Source: a virus
Length of the DNA stretch: 21,547 nucleotides
Direction: 5' to 3' (one strand)
Virus record (IMG/VR): IMGVR_UViG_3300028859_000067
Span: 1 to 21,547 of that record
This document shows, one piece after another, positions 481-20,529 of this stretch. The position numbers were made by a program, and so were the translations under genes. Every line of letters begins with the position of its first letter. Positions within the stretch are counted from its first letter, which is position 1. The notes beneath the pieces were generated by a model. That model worked only from the letters and a program-made list of their open reading frames with translations. It had not been told where the DNA came from and did not search any database.

Positions 481-681
481 ATGAACACATTTTCTGAACC
501 AGTTATTGCTGAAGGACCTCATTCAATTGAAGCTATTGTTGTCGATCAAGTAAAGCATCTTACTATTGCCCGTTCTGGCGATTGTGAGCACATTACTGTA
601 TGGATTGATAGCAAGTGTTTTCTAATCACTGCGTTTATCAATTCTGCCAATGAGCCGCAGATTAGGATTAAACAAGCTTAG
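481..681 (+). CDS. small hypothetical protein, 66 aa, early gene
   Basis: Not recognised. ATG with AAAGGA four bases upstream, directly behind a strong sigma70-type promoter, so this is very probably a real early gene. The product is small and soluble-looking, with no signal peptide, membrane segment or clear metal-binding motif; two cysteines (in GDCEH and SKCFL). The last codons and stop lie inside a 16-bp tandem duplication (663-694), so the C-terminus RIKQA may have been set by that duplication. It is the only protein gene between the repeat protein and the putative small RNA. Confidence 0.65.
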   Translation: MNTFSEPVIAEGPHSIEAIVVDQVKHLTIARSGDCEHITVWIDSKCFLITAFINSANEPQIRIKQA

Positions 682-721: not shown

Positions 722-750
722 TTGACAAATTAGGTTAAACTTGATAACAT
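722..750 (+). promoter_or_regulatory. sigma70-type promoter for a non-coding transcript
   Basis: TTGACA at 722-727, 17-base spacer, TAACAT at 745-750 with TG one base before the -10. It is nearly the same sequence as the 4641 promoter: over 29 bases only a few differ. No open reading frame of useful size follows, so it probably drives the RNA at 757-945. Confidence 0.75.
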
Positions 751-756
751 AATAAT

Positions 757-945
757 AGATAATGTAAATATCAATCAGTAGTGAGTGTATTAGTTAAGCT
801 AGTCTAATAGAAGCGTTGAAAGGACGCCAAAATATGACCTGACAATAGTGAAAACTTATGGGTTACAAATTATAAAAAACATCAATTAGTAGTGGAAAAT
901 CCCAGCGGAGCCAAATATTGGCGTAGATGCTGGGATTTTCATTTG
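757..945 (+). ncRNA. candidate phage small RNA, about 190 nt
   Basis: This stretch without a protein gene (682-984) contains a complete transcription unit: promoter 722-750, expected start near 757, and a strong hairpin at 896-939 followed by a T-rich tail. Between them the longest start-to-stop frames are only a few codons (for example ATG ACC TGA at 834). Local stems seen: ATTAG 789-793 with CTAAT 804-808; GCGTT 813-817 with GACGC 823-827 closing a GAAAG loop; TGACC 835-839 with GGTTA 861-865. A near-identical 14-nt segment ATCAAT(C/T)AGTAGTG occurs near both ends (770-783 and 881-894). T4 itself makes small stable RNAs of unknown function (RNAC, RNAD), so there is precedent. Not matched to any known family. 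Confidence 0.5.
896..939. terminator. two-tier hairpin terminator, probably bidirectional
   Basis: Outer 11-bp stem 896-906 / 929-939 (AAAATCCCAGC with GCTGGGATTTT), inner 5-bp stem GCCAA 910-914 / TTGGC 918-922. It ends the putative small RNA on the plus strand and lies 46 bp past the stop of the minus-strand 985 gene, where the A-rich left arm reads as T-rich. Confidence 0.7.
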
Positions 946-984: not shown

Positions 985-2493
985 TTATGACAATTTGAAA
1001 TTTATTTTTCCACCTGGTTTACTATTCGCGTAAAAATTCTTATGACATTGGAATTTTATTTCACCTTCAAAACTTGGTGGCCAGATAACACTAAAATCAG
1101 TATATGATGCGCCGTCTCCACTCACTGTCATTTTTGTTTTTATTTGAATCATATCACAACGAGATAAAATTTCTTTAAAAAATCCAGTTACAATAGATGT
1201 TTTTTCATTCAATTTCTCAGTCACAAGATATGCGATAGTTGCAAGCAAGTGTAATCCAAAACAATAATTAGGATTCTTTAGATTTGGCTTATATACTGGA
1301 TTAGTTAATACCTTTTGCAGTTTTTTAGTGACATCTTTTTTGGTTGCATTCGGATCATCGATTAATTCTTTAATTTTTTTCTGATCTGCTTTATCGATAA
1401 AATCGAACAGCACTCCCAATTCTAATACTCCATCTACTGCTGATTTGACTTTCAATAAAGTCAACACATTGAATAAATATTTGTATTTTTTCTGACTGAG
1501 CAAATCAGAATATCTTTCTGGATTTTTTTCAATAGCAGTTGTTAAACTAACTACACTAGCTGCTGCCCCACCTTTACTATTCTTGGAACTTACTGCTAAT
1601 TTGGTAGAATTATTAATATGTAAATAACTATCAACTAATTGTTCATTTCCTGCCATTGGAAATGAACAATTTTTTATTTTGGCCCAACTTGATCCCATTG
1701 GTTTAAGTAATTGATCTTCAACTTGTTTATATGCTCCAGAAATAAAATGACCTGTAAGTAGAGCAATTGGAGCAGCAGTCTCCCCAAGATCAACTTCATA
1801 TGAATTGAAATGTTTTGCTGCGTTCGCCACTGGTTCAGAAAATCCAGCCCTAATATTATTTAATAATTTTGGAATTTGTGTAATTACTTCTTCTGGCAAT
1901 TCAGTATGAGTAGCAATGTTTGTAGTAACTTGCTCAAGTAATCCATCAACATCAAAAAAATTATTTACTCCAACAACAGTAGATGGTTTCAAATTAAGAT
2001 CAGCCTTTTGCTGTGCTACATTTTCAATTGCATAATCAGTGTCTCTTGCAAAATCTGAATTAGCCCAAAAAAATGGAACTGAGTTTAAACTTTTGGTGTT
2101 GAATAGTTTTACAAATGCTACAACTTGTTTTTGTTCATTAGTCCATAGCGTCACCAATGCCGCTCTTCCAGTATTATTAACAATGTGCCAATTATTATTG
2201 GAAATTTTTGCTTGAATCTTATATTGCTCAAGTGCTTCCATTACTTTTTGCTGGCCAGTTTTAAGTAATTTTTTTTGATCTGCAAGTGGCAATCTTTTTG
2301 CGGCAGGAGGAAGCATATTTACAGTATCATTTTCATAATACATACCATTTTCAGGAAACACAACATTTCCCATAGCAGTTATGGTTTTTCCTTCTGGACT
2401 TTTAAAAACAATCAATTTTCCAGCAGCGGCTTCTTGACAACGCACATACAATCCCCTACTCCCCGCCTCTTTAATTATTTCGTTATATCTCAT
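985..2493 (-). CDS. hypothetical phage protein, 502 aa
   Basis: Not confidently recognised. Starts MRYNEIIKEAG, a pattern (MRxxE[IL][IL]xE[AG]G) it shares with the neighbouring nucleotidyltransferase-fold gene. A distinctive segment around residues 305-320 (AVSSKNSKGGAAASV) recalls the beta-strand with conserved Ser/Lys in some PD-(D/E)XK-type nucleases, but I cannot assign catalytic residues. No signal peptide or membrane segment. A late-type promoter box (2499-2505) lies immediately before the ATG, inside the end of the upstream homing endonuclease gene, which ends four bases before this start. The weak AAAG is the only ribosome-site candidate, so translation may be coupled or start from a very short leader. 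Probably a late or virion-associated protein; function unknown. Confidence 0.7.
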   Translation of the reverse strand: MRYNEIIKEAGSRGLYVRCQEAAAGKLIVFKSPEGKTITAMGNVVFPENGMYYENDTVNMLPPAAKRLPLADQKKLLKTGQQKVMEALEQYKIQAKISNNNWHIVNNTGRAALVTLWTNEQKQVVAFVKLFNTKSLNSVPFFWANSDFARDTDYAIENVAQQKADLNLKPSTVVGVNNFFDVDGLLEQVTTNIATHTELPEEVITQIPKLLNNIRAGFSEPVANAAKHFNSYEVDLGETAAPIALLTGHFISGAYKQVEDQLLKPMGSSWAKIKNCSFPMAGNEQLVDSYLHINNSTKLAVSSKNSKGGAAASVVSLTTAIEKNPERYSDLLSQKKYKYLFNVLTLLKVKSAVDGVLELGVLFDFIDKADQKKIKELIDDPNATKKDVTKKLQKVLTNPVYKPNLKNPNYCFGLHLLATIAYLVTEKLNEKTSIVTGFFKEILSRCDMIQIKTKMTVSGDGASYTDFSVIWPPSFEGEIKFQCHKNFYANSKPGGKINFKLS

Positions 2494-3673: not shown

Positions 3674-4636
3674 ATGAGAATATTTGAATTATTAATGGAA
3701 GGCGGAAATGTTTTTGCAGGAAAGACTGCTTCTATTAAACGCGAAAATATTGAACCAACCATATCTGCCTATTTCAAAGAATTGAAAAAATTGTTTCCAA
3801 AGAAAGCTAATATTTTCAACTCGCAACATTTTGTACCACTTGGATCAGTTGGGAAGAAAGCAGTATCTGGCGATATAGACTTAGGAATAAGTGCATCAGA
3901 TATTTTAGATAAAACAATGAGTGATGCATCCATCTCTTTATGGGGTATTGATCCACTTGCTGTTCATAATGAAGCTCTATCTTTGGAAAAGAGAGCTAGA
4001 ACAAGTGGACCTGAACGATTGAGAATGAAGGCTTTTTTAAAAATTCTTACTGCATACATTAATTCTAAAAATTCTGATTTATCATGTAATGAGAAGAAAG
4101 TTACTGATGGGAATATTTTTGGTTTGTTTCCACAGTTTGATGAATCAAGAAATAATTTAGGAATTGGAGTTCAAATCGATTGGATGATTGGAGATTTAAA
4201 CTGGCTTAAATTTTCTTATTTTTCATCTGCATATCCAGAAGGGTCAAATGTAAAAGGGCTACATGGCAGCGAACTATTGGCATCTGCTTTTCAAGTTGCA
4301 AATTTAATGTTTAGTCATATAAATGGTATCAAAGATAAAACAACAAATAAGTATATTTCTCATGATCCGCAAGAAGCATTAAATATTTTAGGAGATCGTT
4401 TAGGAGTTATAATTCCCAGATCAGAAGTTGAAGATTATTACAGGCTTCATTCTTTATTGAAAAGCAAAATGCGTCCAGAAGATTATAATACATTATTAAA
4501 TGTTTATTTCAAAATCCTAGATTCAACTCACGGAGATATTCCTGATAACTTACAAAAAGAATGGTTAAAAAGAAAAAATTCTTTGGGATTAACTGGAAAA
4601 TTTCTCCCAGATAATTCTGCTCTGAAGAATAAATAA
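3674..4636 (+). CDS. nucleotidyltransferase-fold protein, 320 aa
   Basis: The N-terminal half shows a polymerase-beta-type nucleotidyltransferase signature: GS at residues 57-58, then GDID with Asp67 and Asp69, and a third candidate acid at Asp169 in QIDWMIGD. This is the GS...DxD...D layout of NTP-transferring enzymes. The C-terminal part is helical without a recognised domain. Similar proteins occur in T4-like phages; substrate unknown (nucleic acid, protein or antibiotic-like small molecule are all possible). I chose ATG 3674 (MRIFELLMEGGNVF) rather than the upstream TTG 3656, because the MRxxELLxEGG beginning matches how such phage proteins start and because the late box lies over the TTG. 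There is no clear ribosome site. Ends five bases before the next promoter. Confidence 0.7.
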   Translation: MRIFELLMEGGNVFAGKTASIKRENIEPTISAYFKELKKLFPKKANIFNSQHFVPLGSVGKKAVSGDIDLGISASDILDKTMSDASISLWGIDPLAVHNEALSLEKRARTSGPERLRMKAFLKILTAYINSKNSDLSCNEKKVTDGNIFGLFPQFDESRNNLGIGVQIDWMIGDLNWLKFSYFSSAYPEGSNVKGLHGSELLASAFQVANLMFSHINGIKDKTTNKYISHDPQEALNILGDRLGVIIPRSEVEDYYRLHSLLKSKMRPEDYNTLLNVYFKILDSTHGDIPDNLQKEWLKRKNSLGLTGKFLPDNSALKNK

Positions 4637-4640
4637 TTTC

Positions 4641-4669
4641 TTGACAAATTATATTAAATTTGTTATCAT
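4641..4669 (+). promoter_or_regulatory. sigma70-type promoter giving a leaderless transcript
   Basis: TTGACA 4641-4646, 17-base spacer, TATCAT 4664-4669 with extended TG. Only six bases (TTTTAT) separate the -10 from ATG 4676, so the expected start nucleotide is the A of the start codon. No ribosome site is present. Drives the three-gene operon 4676-7039. Confidence 0.8.
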
Positions 4670-8504: not shown

Positions 8505-9449
8505 ATGAAGAAATTGACTTTAAAAGAATTCATTGATAAAGCAAATATAGTTCATAATTTTAAATATGATTACATTAATAGCATATATATAAACAGTCGC
8601 TCAAAAATTATAATAAATTGCAAAATATGTAAAGTAAAATTTGCTCAAAATTCAAACAAACATTTGAGTGGAAAAGGTTGCCCTGCTTGTGGAGGAACTA
8701 AAAAAATTACCACAAAAGAATTCATTGATAAAGCAAATATAGTTCATAATTTTAAATATGATTACAGCAAATCCATATATGCAAATAATCATACCAAAAT
8801 CATAATAATTTGCAAAAAATGTCATAATGAATTTACTCAAACTCCTAATAGCCATTTAGCAGGATATGGTTGCAAAAATTGTTTTTTCTATTCTTTAACA
8901 TATAATATTGCTGAATTCATTGATAAAGCAAATATAGTTCATAATTTTAAATATGATTACAGCAAATCCATATATGCAAATAATCATACCAAAATCATAA
9001 TAATTTGCAAAAAATGTCATAATGAATTTACTCAAACTCCCCACAATCATTTAGCAGCAAAAGGATGCGCACAATGCTGTGAATCAAAAGGAGAAAAAAT
9101 AATTAGAAAATATTTACTTGAAAATAACATTAATTTTGAAAACCAATTTAAAATTTCAAAATGTAAAAATAAAAGAATGCTATCATTTGATTTTTCAATT
9201 TTTGAAGCAGAAAAATTAATTGGATTGATAGAATTTCAAGGAATGCAACATTATAAATCTATTAAAAGCTGGGATGGCGAAAAAGGATTTATTCAAAGAA
9301 AATTTAGAGACTCTATAAAATCCAATTTTTGCAGAGAAAACAATATTCCTCTACTTATTATTCCATATTGGAATAAAAATAATATAGAAGAAATATTAAA
9401 TAATTTTATCATAAATATTAATAGGTGCAAATATGACGAAACTATTTGA
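8505..9449 (+). CDS. Vsr-like (EDxHD-type) homing endonuclease with three zinc ribbons, 314 aa
   Basis: Residues 1-195 are three repeats of a ~64-residue unit: EFIDKANIVHNFKYDY, then CKxC and CxxC pairs (CKIC/CPAC, CKKC/CKNC, CKKC/CAQC), i.e. treble-clef or ribbon DNA-binding modules of the DUF723 style. Residues ~198-314 are a Vsr-like PD-(D/E)XK-related nuclease: GEKIIRKYL, LSFDFSIF, GLIEFQGMQHY and a final IPLLIIPYW; likely active residues are the Glu after the ribbon, Asp in FDF and His in QHY. Paralogue of the 18740 protein. It lies between two late genes, two bases after one stop and overlapping the next start by 17 bases, the expected site for an intergenic homing gene. Repeats two and three share an exact 128-bp DNA match. 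No strong ribosome site. Confidence 0.75.
   Translation: MKKLTLKEFIDKANIVHNFKYDYINSIYINSRSKIIINCKICKVKFAQNSNKHLSGKGCPACGGTKKITTKEFIDKANIVHNFKYDYSKSIYANNHTKIIIICKKCHNEFTQTPNSHLAGYGCKNCFFYSLTYNIAEFIDKANIVHNFKYDYSKSIYANNHTKIIIICKKCHNEFTQTPHNHLAAKGCAQCCESKGEKIIRKYLLENNINFENQFKISKCKNKRMLSFDFSIFEAEKLIGLIEFQGMQHYKSIKSWDGEKGFIQRKFRDSIKSNFCRENNIPLLIIPYWNKNNIEEILNNFIININRCKYDETI
8526..9040 (+). repeat. intragenic duplication: exact 128-bp direct repeat plus a 49-bp third copy
   Basis: Bases 8718-8845 and 8913-9040 are identical over 128 bp (195 bp apart), and their first 49 bases also occur at 8526-8574. They encode successive zinc-ribbon modules. No synonymous differences exist in the matched part, so the duplication or conversion is recent. 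Confidence 0.92.
9411..9417 (+). promoter_or_regulatory. late-type promoter for the 9433 gene
   Basis: ATAAATATTAATAGGTG at 9411-9427 combines a late box and the ribosome site AGGTG, closely matching the block at 7937-7952. It lies within the last codons of the homing endonuclease, so the insertion left the downstream gene with its own promoter. Confidence 0.55.
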
Positions 9450-9999
9450 AGGATTTGAAGTAAGTGATTTGGTAAATGTATTGGAACCAAAAATTCATAT
9501 AGACGAATTCAACTCAAAAATGGGAAAAGACGATGATATAATTGTTCTGTCTTTTTTGATTAATGACAAACAAGCAAGTATCGATTTTATTGATTTTATA
9601 GAAAGAGGATATAATTTCGTGCTGGACTGTGATATATCAGATAGCGAATTAAAGCCAGGTAGTTATTTAGTTTTCGTAGAATTATTAAGAAGACGACGAG
9701 TTATTGATCAAATTTTTCAGTTGCTTTCTGATTTATCTGCTGCAAGTCAACTAAATATAAACGATTGGAAGTTTCGTTATATGAATTCAGAAAATTACTA
9801 TCCAGTGACTGCCAAAGAAATGAAACTACATATTCCGTTATATCCAAGAGCTTACAATGAAAAATATAATAAGCCAATTGAAGATGTAAAACAACTTGCA
9901 GGTCTTCAAACTGAAAATTATTATTATAAAGATTCATTAATTGAACAATTACAATTTAATGCAGGTGTACACAATGTCAATAAAAACAGTAATCTCTAA
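9433..9999 (+). CDS. hypothetical late protein, 188 aa
   Basis: Not recognised. AGGTG at 9423-9427 is six bases before ATG 9433; the first 17 bases overlap the end of the homing endonuclease gene. Acidic, alpha/beta-looking soluble protein with YPVTAKEMKLHIPLYPRAY around residues 122-140; this proline/tyrosine-rich segment may be a conserved core. No membrane segments. Its tail overlaps the start of the next gene by 26 bases (stop 9999, next ATG 9974), implying coupled translation. Given its late promoter and position before lysis and tail genes, a virion or assembly role is possible but unproven. Confidence 0.65.
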   Translation: MTKLFEGFEVSDLVNVLEPKIHIDEFNSKMGKDDDIIVLSFLINDKQASIDFIDFIERGYNFVLDCDISDSELKPGSYLVFVELLRRRRVIDQIFQLLSDLSAASQLNINDWKFRYMNSENYYPVTAKEMKLHIPLYPRAYNEKYNKPIEDVKQLAGLQTENYYYKDSLIEQLQFNAGVHNVNKNSNL

Positions 10000-10564
10000 T
10001 TTATTTTCATCAAAATCTACGAGTCAACCAGTTCCTGAGATAAATAAAACTGAACCAATTACATTGGCAGCGCAGCCAATAATTACTAACACGTTAACCC
10101 TTCAGAAGGAGTCTATTAATATGTCAATCATTAAAGATATAGAATCATTTGCAAGCAAGTTTGAAGCTGAATTTACCAAGTTATGGGGCAAAGCTCCAAC
10201 CCTTTCAACAATTGCATTAACAACCATAAAATTTGCTGCTCCATTAATTGAATCTGTTGTTGGTATTGAAGCTGGAGCAGGTGCAAGCACAGAAGTAACA
10301 GAAATATTAGATGATGTTGAGCACAGTCTTGTTGCTGCTGCTGGATTAGTAACAGCAGTAGGTCCAACTGTTTCTGTTACAAATCTAATTACTGGTATTT
10401 CCAACGATTTGACTGCACTTTTGGCTGCTGGACATGTAACTAACTCCACCAGTGTTTCAAATATTACTCTTGTAGTTAAAGAATTGGCTGCATTGCTTGG
10501 ATCACTTCCAGCACCAGCGCCAGTGTCAACTGTTCCAGTTGTAGCAACTGTAGCAACTGTTTAA
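9974..10564 (+). CDS. Ala/Val-rich small protein in lysis-gene region, 196 aa, two possible starts
   Basis: Two in-frame starts have good ribosome sites: ATG 9974 with CAGGTG upstream (196 aa), and ATG 10121 with AAGGAG upstream (147 aa, beginning MSIIKDIESFASKFEAEF). The first 49 residues are Ser/Thr/Pro-rich linker-like sequence; the rest begins with an amphipathic helix, then several hydrophobic stretches (about 75-95 and 115-140) and ends in a Pro-Ala-Val tail containing a repeated VATV. It resembles small uncharacterised phage proteins often found near holin and endolysin genes. The hydrophobic stretches are too polar for me to call true membrane spans. Followed by a strong terminator. 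A holin-like or membrane-associated role is a guess from context. Confidence 0.6.
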   Translation: MSIKTVISNLFSSKSTSQPVPEINKTEPITLAAQPIITNTLTLQKESINMSIIKDIESFASKFEAEFTKLWGKAPTLSTIALTTIKFAAPLIESVVGIEAGAGASTEVTEILDDVEHSLVAAAGLVTAVGPTVSVTNLITGISNDLTALLAAGHVTNSTSVSNITLVVKELAALLGSLPAPAPVSTVPVVATVATV

Positions 10565-10577
10565 TTTTTATTAAACC

Positions 10578-10612
10578 AAAAAACCACTTGTAATTATTAC
10601 AAGTGGTTTTTT
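10578..10612 (+). terminator. rho-independent terminator after the 9974 gene
   Basis: Perfect 16-bp stem 10578-10593 / 10597-10612 with loop TTA: A6-CCACTTGTAA pairs with TTACAAGTGG-T6. Symmetric A6/T6 arms would also work on the other strand, although no minus gene ends here. Confidence 0.9.
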
Positions 10613-10630
10613 ATTTCCTTTCTTCTTTGC

Positions 10631-10637
10631 ATAAATA
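10631..10637 (+). promoter_or_regulatory. late-type promoter for the membrane protein gene
   Basis: GCATAAATATAT with the ATAAATA box at 10631-10637, just after the terminator. Expected start near 10643, leaving a leader of about 12-14 nt that contains AGAGG (10646-10650). Confidence 0.55.
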
Positions 10638-10656
10638 TATCCAGTAGAGGTCAATG

Positions 10657-11397
10657 ATGTTAGAAAATAATATTTTGTTGTATTCAAAAATTGCTGCTTT
10701 TATAAGCCTGTTTCTGTTTTTTATTTCAATGAGCGTATTGGTTTGGAGTGGTCTTAAACTTCCCAATCAAATATCATCATTAATGTCTCAAACACAAACT
10801 GATTTAGTCCAAACTCATATTCTATTGAACAATTTAAATGATACTATTACTAGAACTAACCTTACATTAGATTCTGTTAATAGACAGTGCGGGGTTTCTG
10901 AAAAACCATGCGGAACTTTAGCTGATATAAATAAAACACTGGGAACTATTCGCGGAACATTTGGTCAAATTGAAATCGCTGCAAATCATGAAGATAAAAA
11001 TCTTTATACACTAGATTCGCAAGAAACACAAATATTTAAAGATTCTCATCAATTAATTATCAACGGAAATACATCTTTATTCGCATTAACTTCTACATTA
11101 AATACATTTAATAATGCTGAGAAGAATTTACCTGCGTTATTTAACGTTACTACTGGAACTATTACTGATTTGGATGGAGCAGTAAAACGAATAAACAATA
11201 AATTAGATGATTCAAGGTTTGAATCTATTACTACTCATTTGGATAATATATCTGCTCATGTAGATGGAATGACTGCTGATACTCAATATAAAATGCATCA
11301 ATTATTTCATCCAGATAAAGTTAAATTAACTTTCTGGTCTGGAACAGATGCTACGCTAATGTATATTCACTCTCACATTTTGCCACCATTATTTTAA
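10657..11397 (+). CDS. single-pass membrane protein beside endolysin, 246 aa
   Basis: One clear hydrophobic segment near the N-terminus, about residues 8-32 (YSKIAAFISLFLFF...VLVW), then a long polar region predicted as helical/coiled (repeated Thr, Asn, Leu heptad-like spacing) with two cysteines in RQCGVSEKPCGTLADINKTL. Topology is probably short N-terminus inside and the bulk in the periplasm. Similar membrane-anchored proteins lie beside endolysin genes in other phages; the role could be holin partner, spanin-like or unrelated. Start taken at the second of two adjacent ATGs (10657) because AGAGG is six bases upstream; 10654 would leave only three. The endolysin gene follows after 46 bases. 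Confidence 0.65.
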   Translation: MLENNILLYSKIAAFISLFLFFISMSVLVWSGLKLPNQISSLMSQTQTDLVQTHILLNNLNDTITRTNLTLDSVNRQCGVSEKPCGTLADINKTLGTIRGTFGQIEIAANHEDKNLYTLDSQETQIFKDSHQLIINGNTSLFALTSTLNTFNNAEKNLPALFNVTTGTITDLDGAVKRINNKLDDSRFESITTHLDNISAHVDGMTADTQYKMHQLFHPDKVKLTFWSGTDATLMYIHSHILPPLF

Positions 11398-11443
11398 TAA
11401 CCATATTTAACTTAAATAATTAAATTTAATCATAGAGGAAATG

Positions 11444-11848
11444 ATGGACATAACAGCAGGAATTGATTTGATAAAAGAATTTGAAGGATGTAGATTAACT
11501 GAATATCAAGATATTGCTGGAGTTTTAACAATTGGTTGGGGACACAAGATTTTATCCAATGAAAATTTTTCCGATGGAATAACTCAAGCTCAAGCTGATA
11601 TTATTTTAAACTCTGATTTGATAGTAATCAAAAAATACTTAGAATCTATACCAAACTTAACTGACAACCAAGCATCCGCTTTGGCTGATTTTGGATACAA
11701 TCTTGGGTTGGGAAGTTTAAAAACGATGGTTTTACATGGATTAAATAACGTCCAATCTCAAATTCTTCGTTGGAATAAAGCAGGAGGAGTGGTTGCTCCT
11801 GGTCTTGCTCGAAGACGACAAGCTGAACTTGCTTTATGGTCTTCATAA
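11444..11848 (+). CDS. endolysin, T4-type lysozyme (GH24 muramidase), 134 aa
   Basis: Cleaves the MurNAc-GlcNAc bond of peptidoglycan for host lysis. The catalytic triad spacing is that of T4 lysozyme: Glu14 in EFEGCRL, Asp23 in YQDIAG and Thr29 in TIGWGH (+9, +6). Further family landmarks: ALADFGYNLG and the C-terminal GLARRRQAELALW. At 134 residues it is slightly shorter than T4 lysozyme (164) and close to the P22/lambdoid group in length. No signal peptide or SAR segment, so a holin is needed for export. Two adjacent ATGs (11441, 11444); AGAGGA at 11434-11439 favours 11444. A weak late-type box (TTAAATA near 11412) precedes it, and a palindromic terminator follows three bases after the stop. 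Confidence 0.93.
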   Translation: MDITAGIDLIKEFEGCRLTEYQDIAGVLTIGWGHKILSNENFSDGITQAQADIILNSDLIVIKKYLESIPNLTDNQASALADFGYNLGLGSLKTMVLHGLNNVQSQILRWNKAGGVVAPGLARRRQAELALWSS

Positions 11849-11850
11849 AA

Positions 11851-11882
11851 TAAAAAAGAGCTGGTATACCAGCTCTTTTTTA
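11851..11882. terminator. 32-bp perfect palindromic terminator after endolysin
   Basis: Perfect inverted repeat 11851-11882, 16 bp per arm, core GAGCTGGTA/TACCAGCTC flanked by A6 and T6. Plus-strand terminator for the lysis genes; the next late box begins six bases later. Confidence 0.9.
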
Positions 11883-11887
11883 ATGAA

Positions 11888-11894
11888 CTAAATA
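11888..11894 (+). promoter_or_regulatory. late-type promoter for the gp5-like gene
   Basis: CTAAATACTTTTG at 11888-11900. Expected start near 11900, so the leader is only about ten bases and begins with the ribosome site AGGAA (11901-11905) before ATG 11910. Confidence 0.6.
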
Positions 11895-11909
11895 CTTTTG
11901 AGGAAATCA

Positions 11910-14156
11910 ATGTCCAATAAAAGAATGGGAAGTAAAAGTGCTCCATATATGAGAACAGACAACACTGGCCTTTTTCATAGCCCTGGACCATATATTGCAA
12001 TTGTAAAGAATAATATAGATCCCAGTCGTGCTGGGAGATTGCAAGTTTATATCCCACAATTTGGAGGAAGCGATGAAAATAATCCATCCAATTGGTTGAC
12101 TGTTTCTTATGCTTCTCCTTTTGCTGGACAAACACGGCAACGAATTGACGTAAATTCATACGTTGATACCAACATAGACGTAACTAATCAATATGAGAAT
12201 AGCTTTCAAAGTTATGGATTTTGGTTCGTTCCGCCTGATTTAAATGGTCGAGTGTTGGTTATTTTTGCTAACGGTGATCCATCACAAGGATATTATTTTG
12301 CTTGTATTAGAGATTCTATGGATTCACATATGACTCCTGGAATTGGTGCCGTAAAAGCATCAAAAAGTGCAACAGATGGTGGCTATATTTGGCGTCCTAC
12401 TGGGGCAAATGCTATAGCAACTCATACAATGCTGCAATCTTATATTGAATTAACTCAAAATGGTAAATCTGAGATTCCTTTTAGATTACCAGTAAGCGAA
12501 CCTGTATTAATAGCTCAAGCAAATTCATCTCCTTCCACCCCGTTGCAAGTTCAAATGGTTCCGCAAGTTTATCAAACAAAACAATTAGGAATGCAAGGAC
12601 TAGCTTTTGATTTTATTAGAGGGTCCACTAGCGCATCTAGTGTAAGGGAAAATCCTAGTCAAGTATTTGGTATTAGTACTCCAGGTAGATTAATATCTTT
12701 TGCTAATGTAGCAACTAGTGCAAGTGTCATTTCACAAATTCAAGAATTTTTAAATTCTAATCAAGTAGAAATAGTTAGTAACAATCAAGAAAATCAAGAT
12801 TCTTTAACAAAATCTCTTACTTGCACATATAGAACAGGAGGCCATTCATTTGTAATGGATGATGGCACCATCGATGGATTTGATCAAGGGATAAGAATCA
12901 GAACAACTTCTGGCAATGAAATTTTGATGGATGATACTAATGGGCAAATTTACATAATTAATAGCCAAGGAACAGCTTGGGTTGAACTTTCTCCTTCTGG
13001 GTATATTGACATATTTTCAGCTAATAATTTTTCTATTAGAAGTCAAGGTGATATTAATTTTCATGCTGATAAAAATATCAATATGAATGCAATTGGAAAA
13101 ATTAAAATTCATAGCGGAGACACGACTCAAATTGATAGCATTGGCTCTTTAACTACCAGATCATCCAGTGATTTTACACTATACAGTACTGATTCAATAC
13201 AATTAGGGACTTCTGGAACAGTAGCCATAGATTCAAAAGGAGCAGGAAGCATTCAAAGTGGAGATGTATTAAATATTAAAGGAACTAAAATAAATTTGAA
13301 TAGCGGAAGCGGAAAGAATGTTAAAGATCCTGGAATATTACAGCAAAGTAAACAAATTGATGTTATTCAATCTGATGGAAGTAAAGTATGGTGGTCCAAT
13401 GGTAAATTTGACTCTATTTGTTCTCGTGCTCCTGCTCATGAACCTTGGCCAAATCATGAGATAAATGGTATCAAAACTACTGCGGCTCAAGGAAATGATT
13501 CAGGCCAATCAATAGTTAGACCGCAAACAGGAACTACAAGTTCTGGAGTTCGCGGCACAACAACAGGAAAAACAATAAATGAATCTCAAATTGCTTCCCA
13601 GCCAGTAGTTGGAGTTTTATGCGGATTAACTGTTAGACAAACTCAAGCGTTATTGGCGCAAATTGGACAAAATGAAAATAGTGGAAATTATTCTGGTCAA
13701 AATTCATTGGGATTTGCTGGAAAATATCAACTTGGAGCAGATGCTCTCATTGATTGTGGGTTAATGAAACAAGGAAGTCATTCGTCTGGAACTAATTTAA
13801 CAGCAATAAATAATCCAGCTAATTGGACCGGAAATCCATGCAGTAGTGTTTCTGATTTCTTAAATAATCCATCTATTCAAGAACAAGCAATAATGTTATA
13901 TACAAAAAAGCATTGCATATCATTACAAAAGGCAAAAGTTATAACTTCAGCATCTACACCAGAAGAAATTGGGGGTTATTTAATGGCTGCTCATTTAGTG
14001 GGAGTTGGAGGAGCAATCAAGTTATTTCAAATTCAAAATAATTTACAATCGTCGTCATCTGCTTTAACTAAAGATGCAAATGGAACAACAAGTAATTACT
14101 ATTTTGCTCAAGGCTCAAATGCAGTTGCTTTGGGAAGCAGTTCAGAAAAAGCATAA
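11910..14156 (+). CDS. 5: gp5-like baseplate hub / tail spike with C-terminal cell-wall hydrolase domain, 748 aa
   Basis: Central spike of the contractile tail. Residues ~25-130 are an OB-fold like T4 gp5/VgrG: IDPSRAGRLQVYIPQFG, then FVPPDLNGRVLVIFANGDPSQGYYF in two parts. Residues ~330-470 carry short strand repeats (GDINFHADKNINM, GKIKIHSGD, GTVAIDSKGAG) typical of the trimeric beta-helix needle. Residues ~570-740 look like a lysozyme/transglycosylase-type domain: IGQNENSGNYSGQNS with a candidate catalytic Glu in NENSG, then GFAGKYQLGADALIDCG. In T4 gp5 the lysozyme sits between OB-fold and needle; here it is after the needle. ATG 11910 is chosen over the in-frame TTG 11898 because TGAGGAA lies just before it and the late promoter covers 11888-11900. 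Confidence 0.82.
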   Translation: MSNKRMGSKSAPYMRTDNTGLFHSPGPYIAIVKNNIDPSRAGRLQVYIPQFGGSDENNPSNWLTVSYASPFAGQTRQRIDVNSYVDTNIDVTNQYENSFQSYGFWFVPPDLNGRVLVIFANGDPSQGYYFACIRDSMDSHMTPGIGAVKASKSATDGGYIWRPTGANAIATHTMLQSYIELTQNGKSEIPFRLPVSEPVLIAQANSSPSTPLQVQMVPQVYQTKQLGMQGLAFDFIRGSTSASSVRENPSQVFGISTPGRLISFANVATSASVISQIQEFLNSNQVEIVSNNQENQDSLTKSLTCTYRTGGHSFVMDDGTIDGFDQGIRIRTTSGNEILMDDTNGQIYIINSQGTAWVELSPSGYIDIFSANNFSIRSQGDINFHADKNINMNAIGKIKIHSGDTTQIDSIGSLTTRSSSDFTLYSTDSIQLGTSGTVAIDSKGAGSIQSGDVLNIKGTKINLNSGSGKNVKDPGILQQSKQIDVIQSDGSKVWWSNGKFDSICSRAPAHEPWPNHEINGIKTTAAQGNDSGQSIVRPQTGTTSSGVRGTTTGKTINESQIASQPVVGVLCGLTVRQTQALLAQIGQNENSGNYSGQNSLGFAGKYQLGADALIDCGLMKQGSHSSGTNLTAINNPANWTGNPCSSVSDFLNNPSIQEQAIMLYTKKHCISLQKAKVITSASTPEEIGGYLMAAHLVGVGGAIKLFQIQNNLQSSSSALTKDANGTTSNYYFAQGSNAVALGSSSEKA

Positions 14157-14179
14157 ATGGGAATGCATCCAAATAATGC

Positions 14180-14335
14180 TTGCCTGCTCTATCACATCTG
14201 GCTGCTCAAGAAATATGGAATCATAATGCTATAAAATCAAATAAAAATGGAATTGAATTAATAACTATTTGGGAAATAGATTGGAACAAAAATAAAGAGC
14301 AAATCAAACAAGACTTGCTCTGTAAATTAAAATAA
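14180..14335 (+). pseudogene. remnant of a homing endonuclease (C-terminal fragment)
   Basis: A 51-codon open stretch without ATG or ribosome site, bounded upstream by an in-frame TAA. Its end, NGIELITIWEIDW followed by NKNKEQIKQDLLCKLK, is the usual C-terminal signature of free-standing phage homing endonucleases (a strand ending IWE-DW, then a short helix to the stop). No nuclease or zinc-ribbon part remains. It fills the gap between the convergent gp5-like and gp46-like genes, where an intact homing gene may once have sat. The minus-strand terminator hairpin of gp46 lies inside it. Confidence 0.6.
14286..14321 (-). terminator. terminator for the gp47-gp46 operon
   Basis: On the minus strand AGAGCAA (14321-14315) pairs with TTGCTCT (14302-14296), a 7-bp stem with a 12-nt loop, followed by TTATTTTTGT. 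It lies about 20 bases past the gp46 stop. Confidence 0.6.
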
Positions 14336-14339
14336 TATT

Positions 14340-17222
14340 TTATTCATTAAAATTAAACGAAGTATATCCATTTTCTTTTGTAACAGTTAATACACTATTA
14401 CACTTACTTATCAATTCATCTTTATGACTAATAATCCAAACATCTCTGTTTTGCTGTCTAGACATATCTCTTAATAGTTTAATGGCTGATTCTGTTCCTG
14501 AAACATCAATGCCAGCATCAATCATTTCATCCAATCCCAAAAGATTAATTTTTTGATATAAGCTTTCGTGAACATCTCTGAAAGCAAATGATAGTCCCAA
14601 TTGAAGTCTCGCCATTTCTCCGCGAGATAAATTTCCAGGGCTCAATTCTCTTCCCAATTCACTTATATTAACATCTAAATCATTTTGAAATATTACTGTA
14701 TGCGGAAGTCCCAATGCTGTTAGATAATAATCCAATCGAATATTTAAATAACTAAGATTTTGTTCAATAATCTTCTTTCTAATAAATGAGTCTTTATTAG
14801 TCAATAACTTCATTAAAAATTCTTGATGGTCAACCAAACTTGAAAAAGCATTCATTGTAGATAAATCAATTGTTTCAATCGCAGTATTTTGCATTTCTGA
14901 AATCTGATCTTTATATGGGTCGATTTCATTATATTTTTGCTCATACTGTTGAATCAAAAGATTTAATTTATTTTTATGTTCATAAACGTCAGATAGTGCA
15001 TTATATACTTTTTCTTTTGGTTTAATAACATTGGGAATTATACTAAAAGAAGCCAACACTTCATTTATTTTATCATACCATTGTTGAATATCTTTTTCGG
15101 TTTGATTATATTCTTTTTTTATCTTTAATAATAATTCTTTATGCACATCATCATGAATTTTTTGATGGCACGTTTGGCAACATTGATTTTCTAAACTAAG
15201 CAAATCGTCATTTAACTTCATTAAAATTTTATTTTCTTTATTTAATGAAGTTTCATAATGTTTTTTCTGTTGTTCCAATTGCTCTTTATTAGCAGCAGCA
15301 GTGTTATACTCATCCCAACTTGAATGAATTTTTATTTCTTCTTCAATGTCAATTTTAGAAAGGAAATCAATAGATTTCTCCAATTTAATTAATTCTTCAT
15401 TTTTAGAACGCTCCCACAACTTCTGCCTTCTAATTAAACTATTAATCTGATCTTGTATTCTCTTGTTGGCTTCTTGGACGCTTTTAATACGAATATCTTC
15501 TTTTAACACATCTTCTTTTGCAATTTTAATTTCTTCTTTTAATTTTTCAGCTTTTTCGCTGAGTAAAGTAATTCCCAACAACTGTTCAATAATGGTTCTT
15601 TGGTCACTAACTTTTTGAAATAAGAAAGGCGTTGTATAAGTATTTAATGCAACAATTTGACAAAACATATCATGGCTCATATTCAAAATTGTTTCAATTT
15701 CTTTTTGAGTTTCCCGACTATCTCCTTGTGATGTATCGTTCAAATCTAAAGCAATATCTTTTTCTTCTTTCTTAATTCCATTTTCAAAAAATTCAAATAC
15801 TCTTGGTTTTAAGCCTCGATTAATTATATATTCTTTGCCATCAGATTCAAATTCAATGGTGACTAACATATTTTTACCATTGGTTTTATTAATGAGATGT
15901 TCTTTCTTAATATTGGAAATGGGCCATGAAAATAATGCGTAACTCAATCCATTCATTATAGTAGTATTATGAGTTACAACAAAATTATCAGTAACATATA
16001 AATGCTCTGGATCATCAACCATGATGCACTGACATTCTTTTTTGCCAATAAATTCAATACTTTTTATTTGTGATCGCAACTGTGTTTCATATTGATATTT
16101 TTTTGATAATCTTTCTCTTTTTCTGGGTAGAGATACGATGTTACGCATATTATAATATCTAATATTTACATTATAGGAATCTTTACAAGGAACACGTTTT
16201 CCTTTATAACTATATGTTTTATTTTTTTTATGAAAAATTCTAGCTAACCCTCCAATACTACGAACAATATATGTAATATCATTTGCTAGTTGTCTGCTTG
16301 TTGTGCAAATAGAGAAGCCTCCATTTTTTCCAATATAACCATTAGTGTCCATTAATCCAGCAAGTAATTCTTCTTTTTGCCTTACACTAGAAGATTTATA
16401 AATTTCTGGTATAAATTTAGTATCACTATGCGTTCCGCATAAATTCAATTGTTTTATAATTCTATTAAATTTATTTGGATTTTTTAAAACGTTACTTTCA
16501 TAATTATTATTACTAACAACTCTATAATCATATAAATTAGTCGAATTACCTTTATAACTTAACGAACAATTAAATTCAGAATTTAATTTTTCATTCATTT
16601 TATTTTTCATAAATTCATCAGCAGTAGTAAAAGTAACACTAGATGATACTGATAATCCTGCATAACCTAAAGTAGCTCCTAATAACCATGGATCGATAGG
16701 TAAGCATATATCCGATATATTTTCTGGTTTAATTAATGGTGTGTAAATATAAGCTGAAGGATTTTTATTTTCATATTTTTTTAAATGTTCTATAATTTCG
16801 CCTGTAGTTAAAATACTTTCTTTATTAATATATTTTTTTGATGTAAATTTATGGCTATAAGTTTTCCATAAATGATCATATGAAGCCTCAACTGTTCTTC
16901 CATCAACAAAAGTAATAAGATAAGTATCAAGCATCCCTTGACCATAAATACCTGTTACTTTAGCTTGTTTACCTTTTGGTGTTATAATCAAATCATTTAA
17001 ACATAAATCTCCCATTTTTTTCCAACCAGATTTTGTTAAAATATTAGATGTCAATGGTTGCGCCTTGCCGCATCCATTACGGCTTCCAGAATCTTCTCCA
17101 CCCATATCTAAATTTTCTCCAAGAACCAATACTAACTCTTCTCGATTAAAATTTAATGTTTGCGGTGCATTGCCAATACTTAGAAAATTTCGTAATGTCA
17201 AATTTTTAACTATTATTGCCAT
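14340..17222 (-). CDS. 46: gp46-like recombination nuclease subunit (SbcC/Rad50 type) interrupted by an intein, 960 aa precursor
   Basis: ATPase subunit of the gp46/gp47 (SbcCD/Mre11-Rad50-type) nuclease for DNA end resection in recombination-dependent replication. N-extein residues 1-53 include the family run GENLDMGGEDSGSRNGCGK; C-extein starts TTIMNGLSYALFSWP. After splicing the P-loop reads NGCGKTT. Long coiled coils (about 550-680 and 690-780) surround the zinc-hook CQTC (682-685). The C-terminal ATPase half has signature LSRGE (865-869), Walker B LLGLDE (894-899) and a switch-like WIISHKDE (929-936). The mature protein would be 594 aa, close to T4 gp46 (about 560). Start codon overlaps the previous stop (TAATG). 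Last gene of the gp47-macro-gp46 operon; because the intein splits Walker A, splicing is required for activity. Confidence 0.93.
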   Translation of the reverse strand: MAIIVKNLTLRNFLSIGNAPQTLNFNREELVLVLGENLDMGGEDSGSRNGCGKAQPLTSNILTKSGWKKMGDLCLNDLIITPKGKQAKVTGIYGQGMLDTYLITFVDGRTVEASYDHLWKTYSHKFTSKKYINKESILTTGEIIEHLKKYENKNPSAYIYTPLIKPENISDICLPIDPWLLGATLGYAGLSVSSSVTFTTADEFMKNKMNEKLNSEFNCSLSYKGNSTNLYDYRVVSNNNYESNVLKNPNKFNRIIKQLNLCGTHSDTKFIPEIYKSSSVRQKEELLAGLMDTNGYIGKNGGFSICTTSRQLANDITYIVRSIGGLARIFHKKNKTYSYKGKRVPCKDSYNVNIRYYNMRNIVSLPRKRERLSKKYQYETQLRSQIKSIEFIGKKECQCIMVDDPEHLYVTDNFVVTHNTTIMNGLSYALFSWPISNIKKEHLINKTNGKNMLVTIEFESDGKEYIINRGLKPRVFEFFENGIKKEEKDIALDLNDTSQGDSRETQKEIETILNMSHDMFCQIVALNTYTTPFLFQKVSDQRTIIEQLLGITLLSEKAEKLKEEIKIAKEDVLKEDIRIKSVQEANKRIQDQINSLIRRQKLWERSKNEELIKLEKSIDFLSKIDIEEEIKIHSSWDEYNTAAANKEQLEQQKKHYETSLNKENKILMKLNDDLLSLENQCCQTCHQKIHDDVHKELLLKIKKEYNQTEKDIQQWYDKINEVLASFSIIPNVIKPKEKVYNALSDVYEHKNKLNLLIQQYEQKYNEIDPYKDQISEMQNTAIETIDLSTMNAFSSLVDHQEFLMKLLTNKDSFIRKKIIEQNLSYLNIRLDYYLTALGLPHTVIFQNDLDVNISELGRELSPGNLSRGEMARLQLGLSFAFRDVHESLYQKINLLGLDEMIDAGIDVSGTESAIKLLRDMSRQQNRDVWIISHKDELISKCNSVLTVTKENGYTSFNFNE
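15966..17063 (-). mobile_element. intein in the gp46 P-loop, 366 aa, endonuclease motifs degenerate
   Basis: Precursor residues 54-419. The N-terminal block starts with Ala (AQPLTSNILTKSGWKKMGDL) rather than Cys or Ser; block B is VEASYDHLW with the His; the end is HLYVTDNFVVTHN, and the next residue is Thr. The central part has two LAGLIDADG-type helices about 106 residues apart: LGATLGYAG (181-189) and LAGLMDTNG (287-295). The acidic residue normally at position 8 is Ala in the first and Asn in the second, so the homing nuclease is probably inactive while splicing blocks remain. It is placed between Lys53 of GxGK and Thr420. Confidence 0.9.
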
Positions 17223-17602
17223 TATTCCTCATTATCTTTTTCTTGAAAAGGTAACCATTCCAGCGGAAATATAACATTTTCAGATGCTCCTCTAAACATT
17301 GGAGCAATTTGAAAATGACTATATCCAGCCAATCCAGTACCAACCGCAGTCAATATAAAAGTATCTTCTGAATGATTTCTTGCATACTCTAAAAATATTG
17401 TAACATATTCTTTTATCTTATTCAACGGTAATGTTTTTATATATCTGTCTTTTGTTGGAATCGCATATGATCCACCATCAATTCCAACTCCTTGAATTCC
17501 ATGTCCACAAAATTGAATTGCTCCCCAATTTTTACGGGCTTCCAACGCAGCGCCTTTGCCATTTATTCCAGCTTCATTGCTTCCGTAAACAAAAACGTTC
17601 AT
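17222..17602 (-). CDS. macro-like domain protein, 126 aa
   Basis: Single-domain protein: NVFVYGSNEAGINGKGAALEA at the start in two parts (GSNEAG and GKGAAL), GIQGVGIDGGSYAIPTKD, and TAVGTGLAGYSHFQIAPMF near the end. This order of glycine-rich loops is that of small macro-like proteins of phages and bacteria (the A1S_2505-like family), expected to bind ADP-ribose-type ligands; enzymatic activity is unknown. AAAGGAG lies a few bases before ATG 17602. It sits between gp47 (12-base gap) and gp46 (overlap TAATG), hence co-transcribed with the recombination nuclease. It could reverse ADP-ribosylation or remove NAD-derived signals, but that is inference from the fold and context. Confidence 0.8.
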   Translation of the reverse strand: MNVFVYGSNEAGINGKGAALEARKNWGAIQFCGHGIQGVGIDGGSYAIPTKDRYIKTLPLNKIKEYVTIFLEYARNHSEDTFILTAVGTGLAGYSHFQIAPMFRGASENVIFPLEWLPFQEKDNEE

Positions 17603-17614
17603 TATATTACTCCT

Positions 17615-18634
17615 TTAAATCCCACGATATATTTCAAGTAACAAACTATTATCAAAAAACTGAGATTCTATAGCACCAAGTTGTGACTGAACAATTGTAT
17701 CAACTGACTGAAAAGCTACATTACCTCCATGCGCCAAGTCTTCTGAAAAAGTACTTTTTTTCATTGATATTAATGACATTTCTCTTAACGAATATTCATC
17801 TACTAAAGTTTCTTTCAAATATGCAGCTTCTTCATATGACACTTCTGAATCTAACATTAATTTTATATAACCATTGATTGGTAAATATAATGATGGATCA
17901 ACAACCAATTGGCTAATTTTAACTATTCTGTATTTTGGAGCTTTCGGCCAAGAAATATATTTCGGAGTTCCTCCATATGGCAAAATCATCATTCCTCGAT
18001 CATCATCTCCAGAATCCCCAAAATTATGAGGGAATGCATTTCCTACATAATGAATATTATTCTGCTGCTGTCTCATATGAAAATGGCCAGAATAAACTTC
18101 TTCAATTTGTTTTAACTGATCAATTTTTATATCTCCAACATCTGGCATCGGCACTCGACTGTTCATCATAAATCCAGGTAATTCCAAATGTCCAAATATA
18201 TATTTTGATCTAATATTTTCTATTTTAGAAAAATCTTGCTCATTTAGCCAAGGTAGAAAAGTAACATCATTTTCAGTATATATATCATTAACAATTTCAA
18301 TATTCGGAATATGTTCTGCCCAAGCAATACTATGAATGGTTCTATTGGATTTATAGTAATTATCATGATTGCCAGTAAGAACAATTACTCTATCAAAAGC
18401 ATCACTGAGCAATCTTAATATTTGTAATCCATAATTTAACGAAATTAAATTTACATTATTTCTATTATTAAAAAAATCTCCCAAAAATATACAAATATCA
18501 CAGTTTTCTTCGCTAGATTTTTGTATGAACCATTCAACAAAATTTTTACAATCTTCCAAATGAACAAGACTGTTTGTTTTTAGTCCAATATGCAAGTCAG
18601 TAAAAATTGCTGCTTTTTTAAATAAATTGGTCAT
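17615..18634 (-). CDS. 47: gp47-like recombination nuclease (SbcD/Mre11 type), 339 aa
   Basis: Catalytic phosphoesterase subunit, partner of gp46. Metal-binding motifs in order: FTDLHIG (Asp13, His15), FLGDFFNNR (Asp53), TGNHD (Asn89, His90, Asp91), FGHLE (His149) and SGHFH (183-186 region). With the start at ATG 18634 the length is 339 aa, the same as I recall for T4 gp47. The frame extends 28 codons further upstream to ATG 18718, but that extension covers the promoter (18669-18641) and has no ribosome site. Only six bases lie between the -10 and ATG 18634, so the mRNA is predicted to be leaderless. First gene of the gp47-macro-gp46 operon. Confidence 0.93.
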   Translation of the reverse strand: MTNLFKKAAIFTDLHIGLKTNSLVHLEDCKNFVEWFIQKSSEENCDICIFLGDFFNNRNNVNLISLNYGLQILRLLSDAFDRVIVLTGNHDNYYKSNRTIHSIAWAEHIPNIEIVNDIYTENDVTFLPWLNEQDFSKIENIRSKYIFGHLELPGFMMNSRVPMPDVGDIKIDQLKQIEEVYSGHFHMRQQQNNIHYVGNAFPHNFGDSGDDDRGMMILPYGGTPKYISWPKAPKYRIVKISQLVVDPSLYLPINGYIKLMLDSEVSYEEAAYLKETLVDEYSLREMSLISMKKSTFSEDLAHGGNVAFQSVDTIVQSQLGAIESQFFDNSLLLEIYRGI

Positions 18635-18640
18635 ACTTCG

Positions 18641-18669
18641 ATGATAAGTCCTTTGTAATGTTTTGTCAA
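18641..18669 (-). promoter_or_regulatory. sigma70-type promoter of gp47, start site on the ATG
   Basis: Minus strand TTGACA (18669-18664), 17-base spacer, TATCAT (18646-18641), then six bases to ATG 18634. The -35 abuts, on the opposite strand, the late-type box of the divergent homing endonuclease leader. Confidence 0.8.
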
Positions 18670-18670
18670 G

Positions 18671-18739
18671 ATAAATAATGTCAGTCACGATGTTAGCCCA
18701 TCCACTGACTCTAATCATTCATGGAGGAACAATCAGCTT
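18671..18739 (+). promoter_or_regulatory. structured 5' leader of homing endonuclease gene, copy 2
   Basis: Late-type box ATAAATAATG (18671-18680), then a 30-nt hairpin 18680-18709: outer stem GTCAGT/ACTGAC, CAC bulge, inner stem GATG/CATC, loop TTAGCC, one C on the 3' side. TCTAAT (18710-18715) and GGAGG-AACAATCAGC follow before ATG 18740. Same plan as 3587-3654: identical stem lengths, bulges and loop size. Confidence 0.65.
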
Positions 18740-19687
18740 ATGCGTATTTATACAACTACTGATTTCATATTATCGTCTATTTCTAAACATAATAATGAAT
18801 TGCTTTCTTATGAAAAAACTATTTTCACTAGTAAAAACTCCAAAGTAATTATTACTTGCAAACTTCACGGCGATTTTGAGCAAATAGCAAAAATTCATTT
18901 GAAGGGGCATAGTTGCCCTCAGTGCGGCCATAATTATCGAGCCAATTTAAATAGATTAACCACTGAACATTTTATTAATGATGCTAATAAAATTCATAAT
19001 TTTTTCTTTTCATATGATAATTCTTTTTATATTGGTAGAAATCGCAAAATAACTATTACTTGTCCCTTTCATGGTGAGTTTAATCAAATGGCAGGAAATC
19101 ATTTAAATGGCTTTGGGTGTCCCAGTTGTTCTGGTTGCAAAAAATTAACAACTGAAGAATTTGTAAGAAAAGCCAATATTAAACATAATTTTAAATTTGA
19201 TTATAGCAAGTCAATTTATATAGGTGCTCATTCAAAAGTTATTATAAGTTGCCCAGAACATGGTGAGTTTACTCAGAAACCAAATTGTCATTTATCTGGC
19301 GCTGGCTGTCCTGTGTGTAAAGAATCAAAAGGAGAACGAGAAATTCGCATAAATCTTAAAGAATTAAAAATGAATTTCAAATACCAATACTCTTTTAAAA
19401 ATTGCAAAAATATAAAACCACTGCCATTTGATTTTGCATTATTTAATAATAAAAAATTAATTGGTCTAATAGAATATCAAGGTATACAGCATTATAAAGT
19501 AGGTTCTTTTGGTAGTAAATCAAAATCAATAGAAGATAAAATTAAAGATTTATATGAAATTCAATCTAGAGACTTAATTAAACTAAATTATTGCAAAACA
19601 AATAAAATTCCTCTTTTAATTATTCCTTATTGGAATCTGAGTAATATCAAAAATATTTTGTCTAATTATTCATATCCACCATCATAG
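18740..19687 (+). CDS. Vsr-like (EDxHD-type) homing endonuclease with three zinc ribbons, 315 aa
   Basis: Paralogue of the 8505 protein with the same plan. Three DNA-binding modules of ~65 residues carry CxxH and CxxC pairs (CKLH/CPQC, CPFH/CPSC, CPEH/CPVC). The C-terminal nuclease reads SKGEREIRINL, LPFDFALF, LIGLIEYQGIQHY and ends IPLLIIPYW; candidate active residues are Glu in GERE, Asp in FDF and His in QHY. Unlike the 8505 copy its modules have diverged from each other. Ribosome site GGAGG (18723-18727) precedes ATG 18740. It is inserted between gp47 and the gp55-like gene, on the opposite strand, and its last 22 bases overlap the C-terminal codons of gp55. Its leader matches the one before the 3586 endonuclease. 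Confidence 0.78.
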   Translation: MRIYTTTDFILSSISKHNNELLSYEKTIFTSKNSKVIITCKLHGDFEQIAKIHLKGHSCPQCGHNYRANLNRLTTEHFINDANKIHNFFFSYDNSFYIGRNRKITITCPFHGEFNQMAGNHLNGFGCPSCSGCKKLTTEEFVRKANIKHNFKFDYSKSIYIGAHSKVIISCPEHGEFTQKPNCHLSGAGCPVCKESKGEREIRINLKELKMNFKYQYSFKNCKNIKPLPFDFALFNNKKLIGLIEYQGIQHYKVGSFGSKSKSIEDKIKDLYEIQSRDLIKLNYCKTNKIPLLIIPYWNLSNIKNILSNYSYPPS

Positions 19688-20529
19688 CTATTAATATCTT
19701 TATTTGTGCGCGAATAGCTGGGATTCATAGAATTTTTTATAAGCAGATCATCTCGTATCTGCTGATTTTTCTTTTCAATATTTAGTATTCGTAAGAAAGA
19801 GTTATGACATATAGATGTAAAAAATGCAAAAGGATTGGCTGATTTTGATTCATCGAACTGAAGGGCTACTTGGCAAAGTTGCATTACTGCCTGACCTTTA
19901 AATTCTTCAACATAAGAATAATTTCTCCAGTTTCCTTTACTCGCATATTTGTCTGTTAATTTCATAATCATTCTTGCCAAAGTATCTGTAAAATATCCGT
20001 GAGTCTTGCAAAATTGTCCATTATCCAAATCTCCAATCCAATGACTTTTAGCAACTACACGCAAAATATTATTTTCATCAAATCTATAATTGTAAAACGG
20101 AGGGAAATTAATTCTAATATGGTCAGCTTTTAAATTACTCAGCGGCACAATATTTAAACTTTCCAAATCATCATCTTCATCTTCTAAAACAAAATCATCA
20201 TTGTCAATTACACTATCAAAAAATCTATCTATACTTTTTCCTGGAACAATTTCAGCCAACATCTTTTCTGATTTAGAAATTTTCGGAGGAAGCATTGGTA
20301 TGTGTTCCCAAGTCATAATTCTAAAAACTAAATTAGTTGTTGGTAAGTTGTCTATATTTACTTTTTCTCCAGTTTCTCTTAAAATTCTGGCTACTTTGTT
20401 TTGCTTTGCTAAAATAATATTTTGATAATTTATTTCTTTAGTGTCAAATAATATTATATCATATTGGTGATCAGTTTCTTTGTTTAGAAATGAACAAAAC
20501 GTATTCTTTGAAAGATGAATTTCTTTCAT
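19666..20529 (-). CDS. 55: gp55-like late-transcription sigma factor with long N-terminal extension, 287 aa
   Basis: Directs host RNA polymerase to late promoters of the TATAAATA type. The C-terminal half (about residues 155-265) matches the gp55 core by eye: VAKSHWIGDLDNGQFCKTHGYF in two parts, WRNYSYVEEFKGQAVMQLC, and FDESKSANPFAFFTSICHNSFLRIL, the helical region 2-like part. T4 gp55 is about 185 aa; here ~140 residues precede the core, including TNLVFRIMTWEHIPMLPPK and an acidic run (DNDDFVLEDEDDDLE). Many late-type boxes in the window fit its presence. The ribosome site is weak (AGAG). Upstream, 50 bases away, is a frameshifted small gene probably in the same early operon from 20894-20866. 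Its last codons overlap the convergent endonuclease gene. Confidence 0.85.
   Translation of the reverse strand: MKEIHLSKNTFCSFLNKETDHQYDIILFDTKEINYQNIILAKQNKVARILRETGEKVNIDNLPTTNLVFRIMTWEHIPMLPPKISKSEKMLAEIVPGKSIDRFFDSVIDNDDFVLEDEDDDLESLNIVPLSNLKADHIRINFPPFYNYRFDENNILRVVAKSHWIGDLDNGQFCKTHGYFTDTLARMIMKLTDKYASKGNWRNYSYVEEFKGQAVMQLCQVALQFDESKSANPFAFFTSICHNSFLRILNIEKKNQQIRDDLLIKNSMNPSYSRTNKDINSYDGGYE

Follow-up and report, generated by a model that had tools for sequence, protein, structure and literature searches.

What does a short stretch between a predicted promoter and a terminator-like hairpin do in a T4-like phage when it holds no gene of ordinary size? The locus lies in IMG/VR record IMGVR_UViG_3300028859_000067, whose 21,547 bases (31% G+C) were analysed over their whole length and are called the window here. 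The window carries T4-like genes for a late sigma factor, a Phage_base_V baseplate protein, PhoH, and gp46/gp47-like SMC and calcineurin-like proteins. Because 8913-21547 is equal to part of an 80-kb record, G003, at 12,634 of 12,635 positions, the two records were taken as one phage. The unit itself (722-942) lies outside this overlap and adjoins small genes bearing their own promoters. Other features of the window were also recorded. A DUF4116 protein is encoded at 3-397 by 5.4 tandem copies of a 66-nt repeat (87% matches), and two paralogs with promoters of their own are located near the G003 end (L122:13298-14365). A gp46-like SMC/RecF-type protein (14340-17222) has a LAGLIDADG homing-endonuclease segment, probably an intein, inserted at about residues 271-358. 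A GIY-YIG (SegE-like) endonuclease and two treble-clef zinc-finger (DUF4379) proteins, all probable homing endonucleases, are encoded amid conserved phage genes (2498-3586, 8505-9449, and 18740-19687).

A sequence-only reading of this DNA had described the locus as a promoter-to-terminator unit without an ORF. No ORF of at least 30 aa ends before the terminator in 722-942, where only few-codon frames occur, in agreement with that description; a 32-aa GTG frame which it had missed (892-990) crosses the hairpin and is not conserved. Transcription from the promoter at 722 is predicted to start near 757. This promoter was said to be almost identical to the one at 4641. The two are indeed similar, but the alignment of 706-750 with 4625-4669 gave 78% identity over 45 nt, and the wording was therefore too strong. 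The 722 promoter also resembles other promoters of this phage that directly precede small early genes, e.g., TTGACAAACAACCCAAACATTGATACCAT, while promoter-like sites in a generic scan were no commoner than chance (36 found vs 32.6 expected). For the sister promoter, the predicted start coincides or almost coincides with the ATG at 4676, where anti-Shine-Dalgarno (SD) pairing is absent (+1.5 kcal/mol), which suggests that this modelled message may be leaderless. Just upstream of the 722 promoter, a 16-nt tandem duplication (TTAGGATTAAACAAGC, 2.6 copies, 659-703) runs across the end of the 66-aa gene.

The gene converging on the unit was used as a syntenic anchor. Useful relatives of this gene in IMG/VR, at 64-68% protein identity, were found in G001 (IMGVR_UViG_3300028909_000017) and in G006, G009, and L127, whose sequences are almost the same here and which were counted as one lineage. 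In both other lineages, a homolog of the element lies just past the 3′ end of the anchor gene on the opposite strand, and the proposed search for the same region in related phages thus gave syntenic homologs in two lineages beyond that of the window. A covariance model made from the window and G001 only was run on 0.8 Mb. It found G009 and L127 with E = 2.7e-5 and gave no other credible match there; its E-values are rough. These sequence comparisons support homology, at the same locus in three lineages, of 826-942, which comprises the SD-like stretch, AUG ACC UGA C, an AU-rich stretch of about 50 nt, and the terminator hairpin. The independent sequences of the element number three. Two other lineages carry the anchor gene without the element, among them G002/L130, whose anchor gene is 58% identical, and no copy of the box turned up near the anchor gene in relatives at 31-37% identity. 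As to translation-related RNA genes in these phages, about 29 tRNA genes are present in G001 and none in the window or G003; a tmRNA gene of the permuted type with the tag ADSIVNGATKIFTYPVKISNRELALA was reported by ARAGORN in a relative phage (L116:15183-15608; G009 55183-55608).

Table 1. Features of the unit and its flanks, in window positions.
Feature	Positions	Strand	Details
Upstream small early gene	481..681	+	66 aa; homolog 59% identical, also upstream of the element in G006/G009
Early (sigma-70-type) promoter, predicted activity	722..750	+	TTGACA-17-TAACAT; 10/12 matches; TG before -10
Predicted small transcript	757..942	+	Putative ends, from the promoter at 722 and the hairpin at 895-940; roughly 185 bases
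Repeat, 5′ copy	770..783	+	ATCAATCAGTAGTG; 13/14 identical to 881-894; not seen in homologs
SD-like stretch	818..825	+	GAAAGGAC; anti-SD energy -5.3 kcal/mol, as for genes of this phage
Conserved box	834..843	+	ATGACCTGAC; two-codon frame AUG ACC UGA (834-842) plus C; three-lineage 10-mer
Repeat, 3′ copy	881..894	+	TAGTAGTG (887-894) kept in G001 as CAGTAGTG
Terminal hairpin	895..940	+	Outer arms 895-906/929-940 (12-bp perfect); inner stem 910-914/918-922 (5 bp)
Kink-turn-type internal loop	907..928	+	GGA (907-909) opposite GUAGAU (923-928)
Convergent gene, syntenic anchor	985..2493	-	502 aa; no Pfam or PHROG match

Translation of every forward frame in the three lineages gave short dissimilar frames with stops at differing places. 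The conserved small peptide that had been named as evidence against an RNA unit was not found, the two codons described below aside. Frameshifted or remnant peptides (MTD..., YDLTI) were considered and rejected after the translations of the three lineages were compared. The idea of a short unit without an ordinary protein was supported by the syntenic homologs in two other lineages, the lack of a conserved peptide, and the covariation of the terminal hairpin.

The deepest-conserved element, which had escaped the first reading, is by its sequence a ribosome-binding-site-like stretch followed by AUG ACC UGA. The reading that we tentatively favour, as a possible one, is that the unit is a lineage-restricted small early RNA with a two-codon minigene, working like lambda bar, as its functional core. 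Several observations argue for this. ATGACCTGAC is the only 10-mer common to all three syntenic regions (2/5000 dinucleotide-shuffle triples share a word that long), it occurs once per genome in the window, G001, and G009 with both strands searched, and the third lineage was recovered by the covariance model. The frame of start, one codon, and stop is kept in all three lineages, where a purine-rich SD-like stretch of gene-like strength precedes the AUG (-5.3, -5.7, and -6.3 kcal/mol), energies that about 10% of all window ATGs also reach. When intergenic sites with SD, ATG, one codon, and stop were collected from about 330 kb of these phages, AUG ACC UGA was the only one shared between genomes. 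The sequence 'GAAAGGA', similar to the SD-like stretch, precedes other early genes, and the window element has the same promoter plus GAAAGGA layout as these small genes. In the window phage, ACC makes up 8-9% of Thr codons and TGA is a minority stop. Two-codon phage minigenes that affect translation are also known: when expressed, the lambda bar minigenes (AUG AUA UAA) are toxic to E. coli with a deficiency of peptidyl-tRNA hydrolase (Pth), and peptidyl-tRNA can accumulate (PMC8012679).

Other observations stand against the minigene. The window AUG is predicted to be mostly paired (unpaired 0.05-0.23 at U and G), while that of G006 is open, and the SD-to-AUG spacing is 9 in the window, 4 in G006, and only 1 in G001. 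ACC is not rare in G001/G009, at 19-23% of Thr codons. No promoter was found directly before the element in G001 and G006; a promoter of its own was seen only in the window lineage, and in the other two the element may only be the 3′ end of an operon. The comparison holds only three independent sequences, the element is missing from two lineages with the anchor gene, and conservation of the 10-mer could have another cause. Because the window AUG is predicted to be paired and the G001 SD lies too close, the minigene reading is only moderately to weakly supported.

If the minigene reading is right, early transcription in the window phage would start from the 722 promoter and end at the bidirectional hairpin. 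Ribosomes would load at the SD-like stretch, make fMet-Thr, and meet UGA-C, which is a weak stop context. Slow termination or drop-off would then tie up ribosomes or leave peptidyl-tRNA-Thr, comparable to lambda bar with tRNA-Ile. Since no plus-strand cistron follows before the terminator, we propose that the minigene RNA would be trans-acting, with translation in the infected cell as its target. The kink-turn-type loop, present in the window and G001 only, may make the 3′ end more stable or be the binding site of a host protein. A search of these phage records found no Pth gene. A stronger version, in which a stand-alone two-codon early gene with a kink-turn hairpin tail is kept through T4-like divergence and uses up initiator tRNA, tRNA-Thr(GGU), and ribosomes, so stopping or readjusting host translation, appears doubtful.

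The same box could in principle serve a longer product, with +1 frameshifting at ACC UGA C leading into a short protein. In the window, 51 codons of the +1 frame can be read without a stop (MTDNSENLWV...), and UGA-C, the context used by the prfB frameshift, is present at the stop. However, its counterparts in G001 and G006 resemble it little and reach a stop after 17 and 11 codons, respectively; ACC-U is no slippery codon, and the window frame crosses the terminator hairpin. We regard such a protein as highly improbable.

The hairpin that ends the unit is very stable (z = -6.3). It has A4 before and T4 after its G+C-rich core, a classic T-run tail is absent, and a simple terminator scan did not report it. 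What had been called a two-tier terminator corresponds to its outer and inner stems. Given the A4/T4 flanks and the position between converging genes, the hairpin is probably a bidirectional terminator for both units. Among the three lineages, 5 of 10 outer pairs were changed on both sides and all are still paired (2/500 shuffles), a count that leans toward structure because the alignment was fitted to the model. By eye, window and G001 differ by two double changes in the first nine hairpin pairs. This covariation could be explained by selection for the terminator alone. Of the stems proposed for a covariation test, the terminal hairpin covaries; the sequence 5′ of it is structurally unremarkable.

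These properties raise the question of whether the locus is simply an operon end, that is, a bidirectional terminator together with the beginning of a small early gene that was otherwise lost; the promoter and SD would be leftovers of this gene, and the transcript would be inert. The flanked hairpin between converging genes fits with this, as does the lack of structure outside it. Gene content just upstream varies among the three lineages, with an extra gene in G006/G009 and no 66-aa gene in G001, which marks the site as one where genes are gained and lost. In G001, the small gene preceding the element (MKANETVATQ..., L003 ~7800, minus strand) differs by a one-base frameshift from its ortholog in G006 (GGAGATATTTAAAAGCGG), and is either a decayed gene or a sequencing error. 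On the other hand, leftovers should not keep the 10-mer, YAGTAGTG, and the hairpin loop while the neighbouring protein has diverged to 64-68% identity, and a terminator has no need of a kink-turn-type loop. Taken with these points, an inert operon end is somewhat unlikely.

The internal loop was compared with known kink-turns. The arrangement CCAGC-GGA-GCC/GGC-GUA-GAU-GCUGG at 902-933 (GGU for GGC in G001) gives a bulge of three bases and, after it, G-A and A-G. In the standard kink-turn rule, a three-base bulge precedes G-A and A-G pairs between two helices (PMC5061560), and the loop agrees with this rule as a sequence match. It is identical in G001 though the stems have changed, and is absent in G006/G009, which form a plain hairpin. 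Unlike standard Kt-7 type kink-turns (PMC5061560), it lies inside a phage terminator hairpin, it occurs in two of the three lineages, and no L7Ae-family gene was found in these phage records. A search of open-access papers gave no precedent for a phage terminator hairpin with such a loop.

A base-pairing small RNA was the other candidate, with the AUGACCUGAC and YAGUAGUG boxes as seeds for host or phage messages and the hairpin as terminator and protective 3′ end. The unit does stand alone in the window, its conserved boxes (YAGTAGTG being common to the window and G001) are carried by a largely unstructured RNA, and the terminal hairpin is stable and covarying. The 14-nt repeat, which duplicates one box in the window, was present as described, with an identity equalled by 2/150 dinucleotide shuffles, but only its 3′ copy is conserved. 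The two copies were also considered as a structural pair, and this was rejected on the lack of conservation of the 5′ copy. Against seeds of this kind, a perfect complement of ATGACCTGA is absent from the phage genomes themselves, the unit's own promoter is not conserved, and the SD before the box and its start-stop reading would have to be coincidence. We therefore judge a base-pairing RNA unlikely.

Several local stems had also been proposed; outside the terminator, the folding of 757-893 was no better than that of shuffled sequences (z = +0.31; 122/200 shuffles as good). The Rfam search that had been suggested, at gathering score and with E up to 10, gave no family match and no credible match for the unit. 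Neither a conserved fold beyond the terminator nor a described family was thus found. The original proposal of a structured regulatory RNA or decoy was not supported, given the unstructured 5′ part, the Rfam result, and the unconserved 5′ repeat copy and promoter. A 6S-like promoter decoy was rejected; the predicted fold is without a long hairpin bearing a single large central bubble, and Rfam gave no match. The unit is like phage small RNAs such as the c4 RNA of P1/P7 (review PMC12197685) in its short predicted transcript, its lack of an ordinary ORF, and its terminator hairpin. It is unlike them in having no known target, no conserved fold outside the terminator, and no Rfam match.

Further homologs were searched for. 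No credible match to the window region or its G001 homolog was obtained by blastn against 50,697 named phage records. Degenerate scans of IMG/VR (hairpin; box + box + GGAG; SD + ATGACCTGAC) gave, besides G001, matches inside coding genes, with the exception of one intergenic match in the unrelated contig L153; these scans require exact short-pattern matches, and diverged relatives could be missed. Bacterial and archaeal genome contigs scanned for the hairpin gave 9 contigs, with all matches inside long open frames. With tblastn, the anchor gene found nothing in named phages and genome contigs, and neither the alignment of the anchor nor that of the 66-aa protein, when used for searching, led to another lineage that carries the element.

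Among known systems, the unit resembles lambda bar (PMC8012679) as a phage-encoded two-codon frame behind an SD, without a product of ordinary size and with a second codon rarely used by this AT-rich phage. It differs in that the window frame encodes Met-Thr with UGA and belongs to a promoter-to-terminator unit of its own; the likeness is by analogy, and sequence kinship is not claimed. Two-codon mini-ORFs also occur in bacterial leaders, such as axe-txe mg2 (ATG ACT TAA) and LEE1 (PMC8708949), which share with the window a Met-Thr two-codon frame with an SD. These act in cis on the next cistron, whereas the window unit has no cistron before the terminator.

Two-codon frames fall under the usual length limits of gene calling. 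Should the unit instead prove to be a terminator remnant or a small RNA, the result would still be a conserved small element whose phage terminator hairpin bears a kink-turn-type loop. If the minigene reading is true, a conserved two-codon unit would suggest that minigenes like lambda bar are an evolved phage tool and not a lambda curiosity, and mini-messages acting on the host translation machinery would give the unit its importance.
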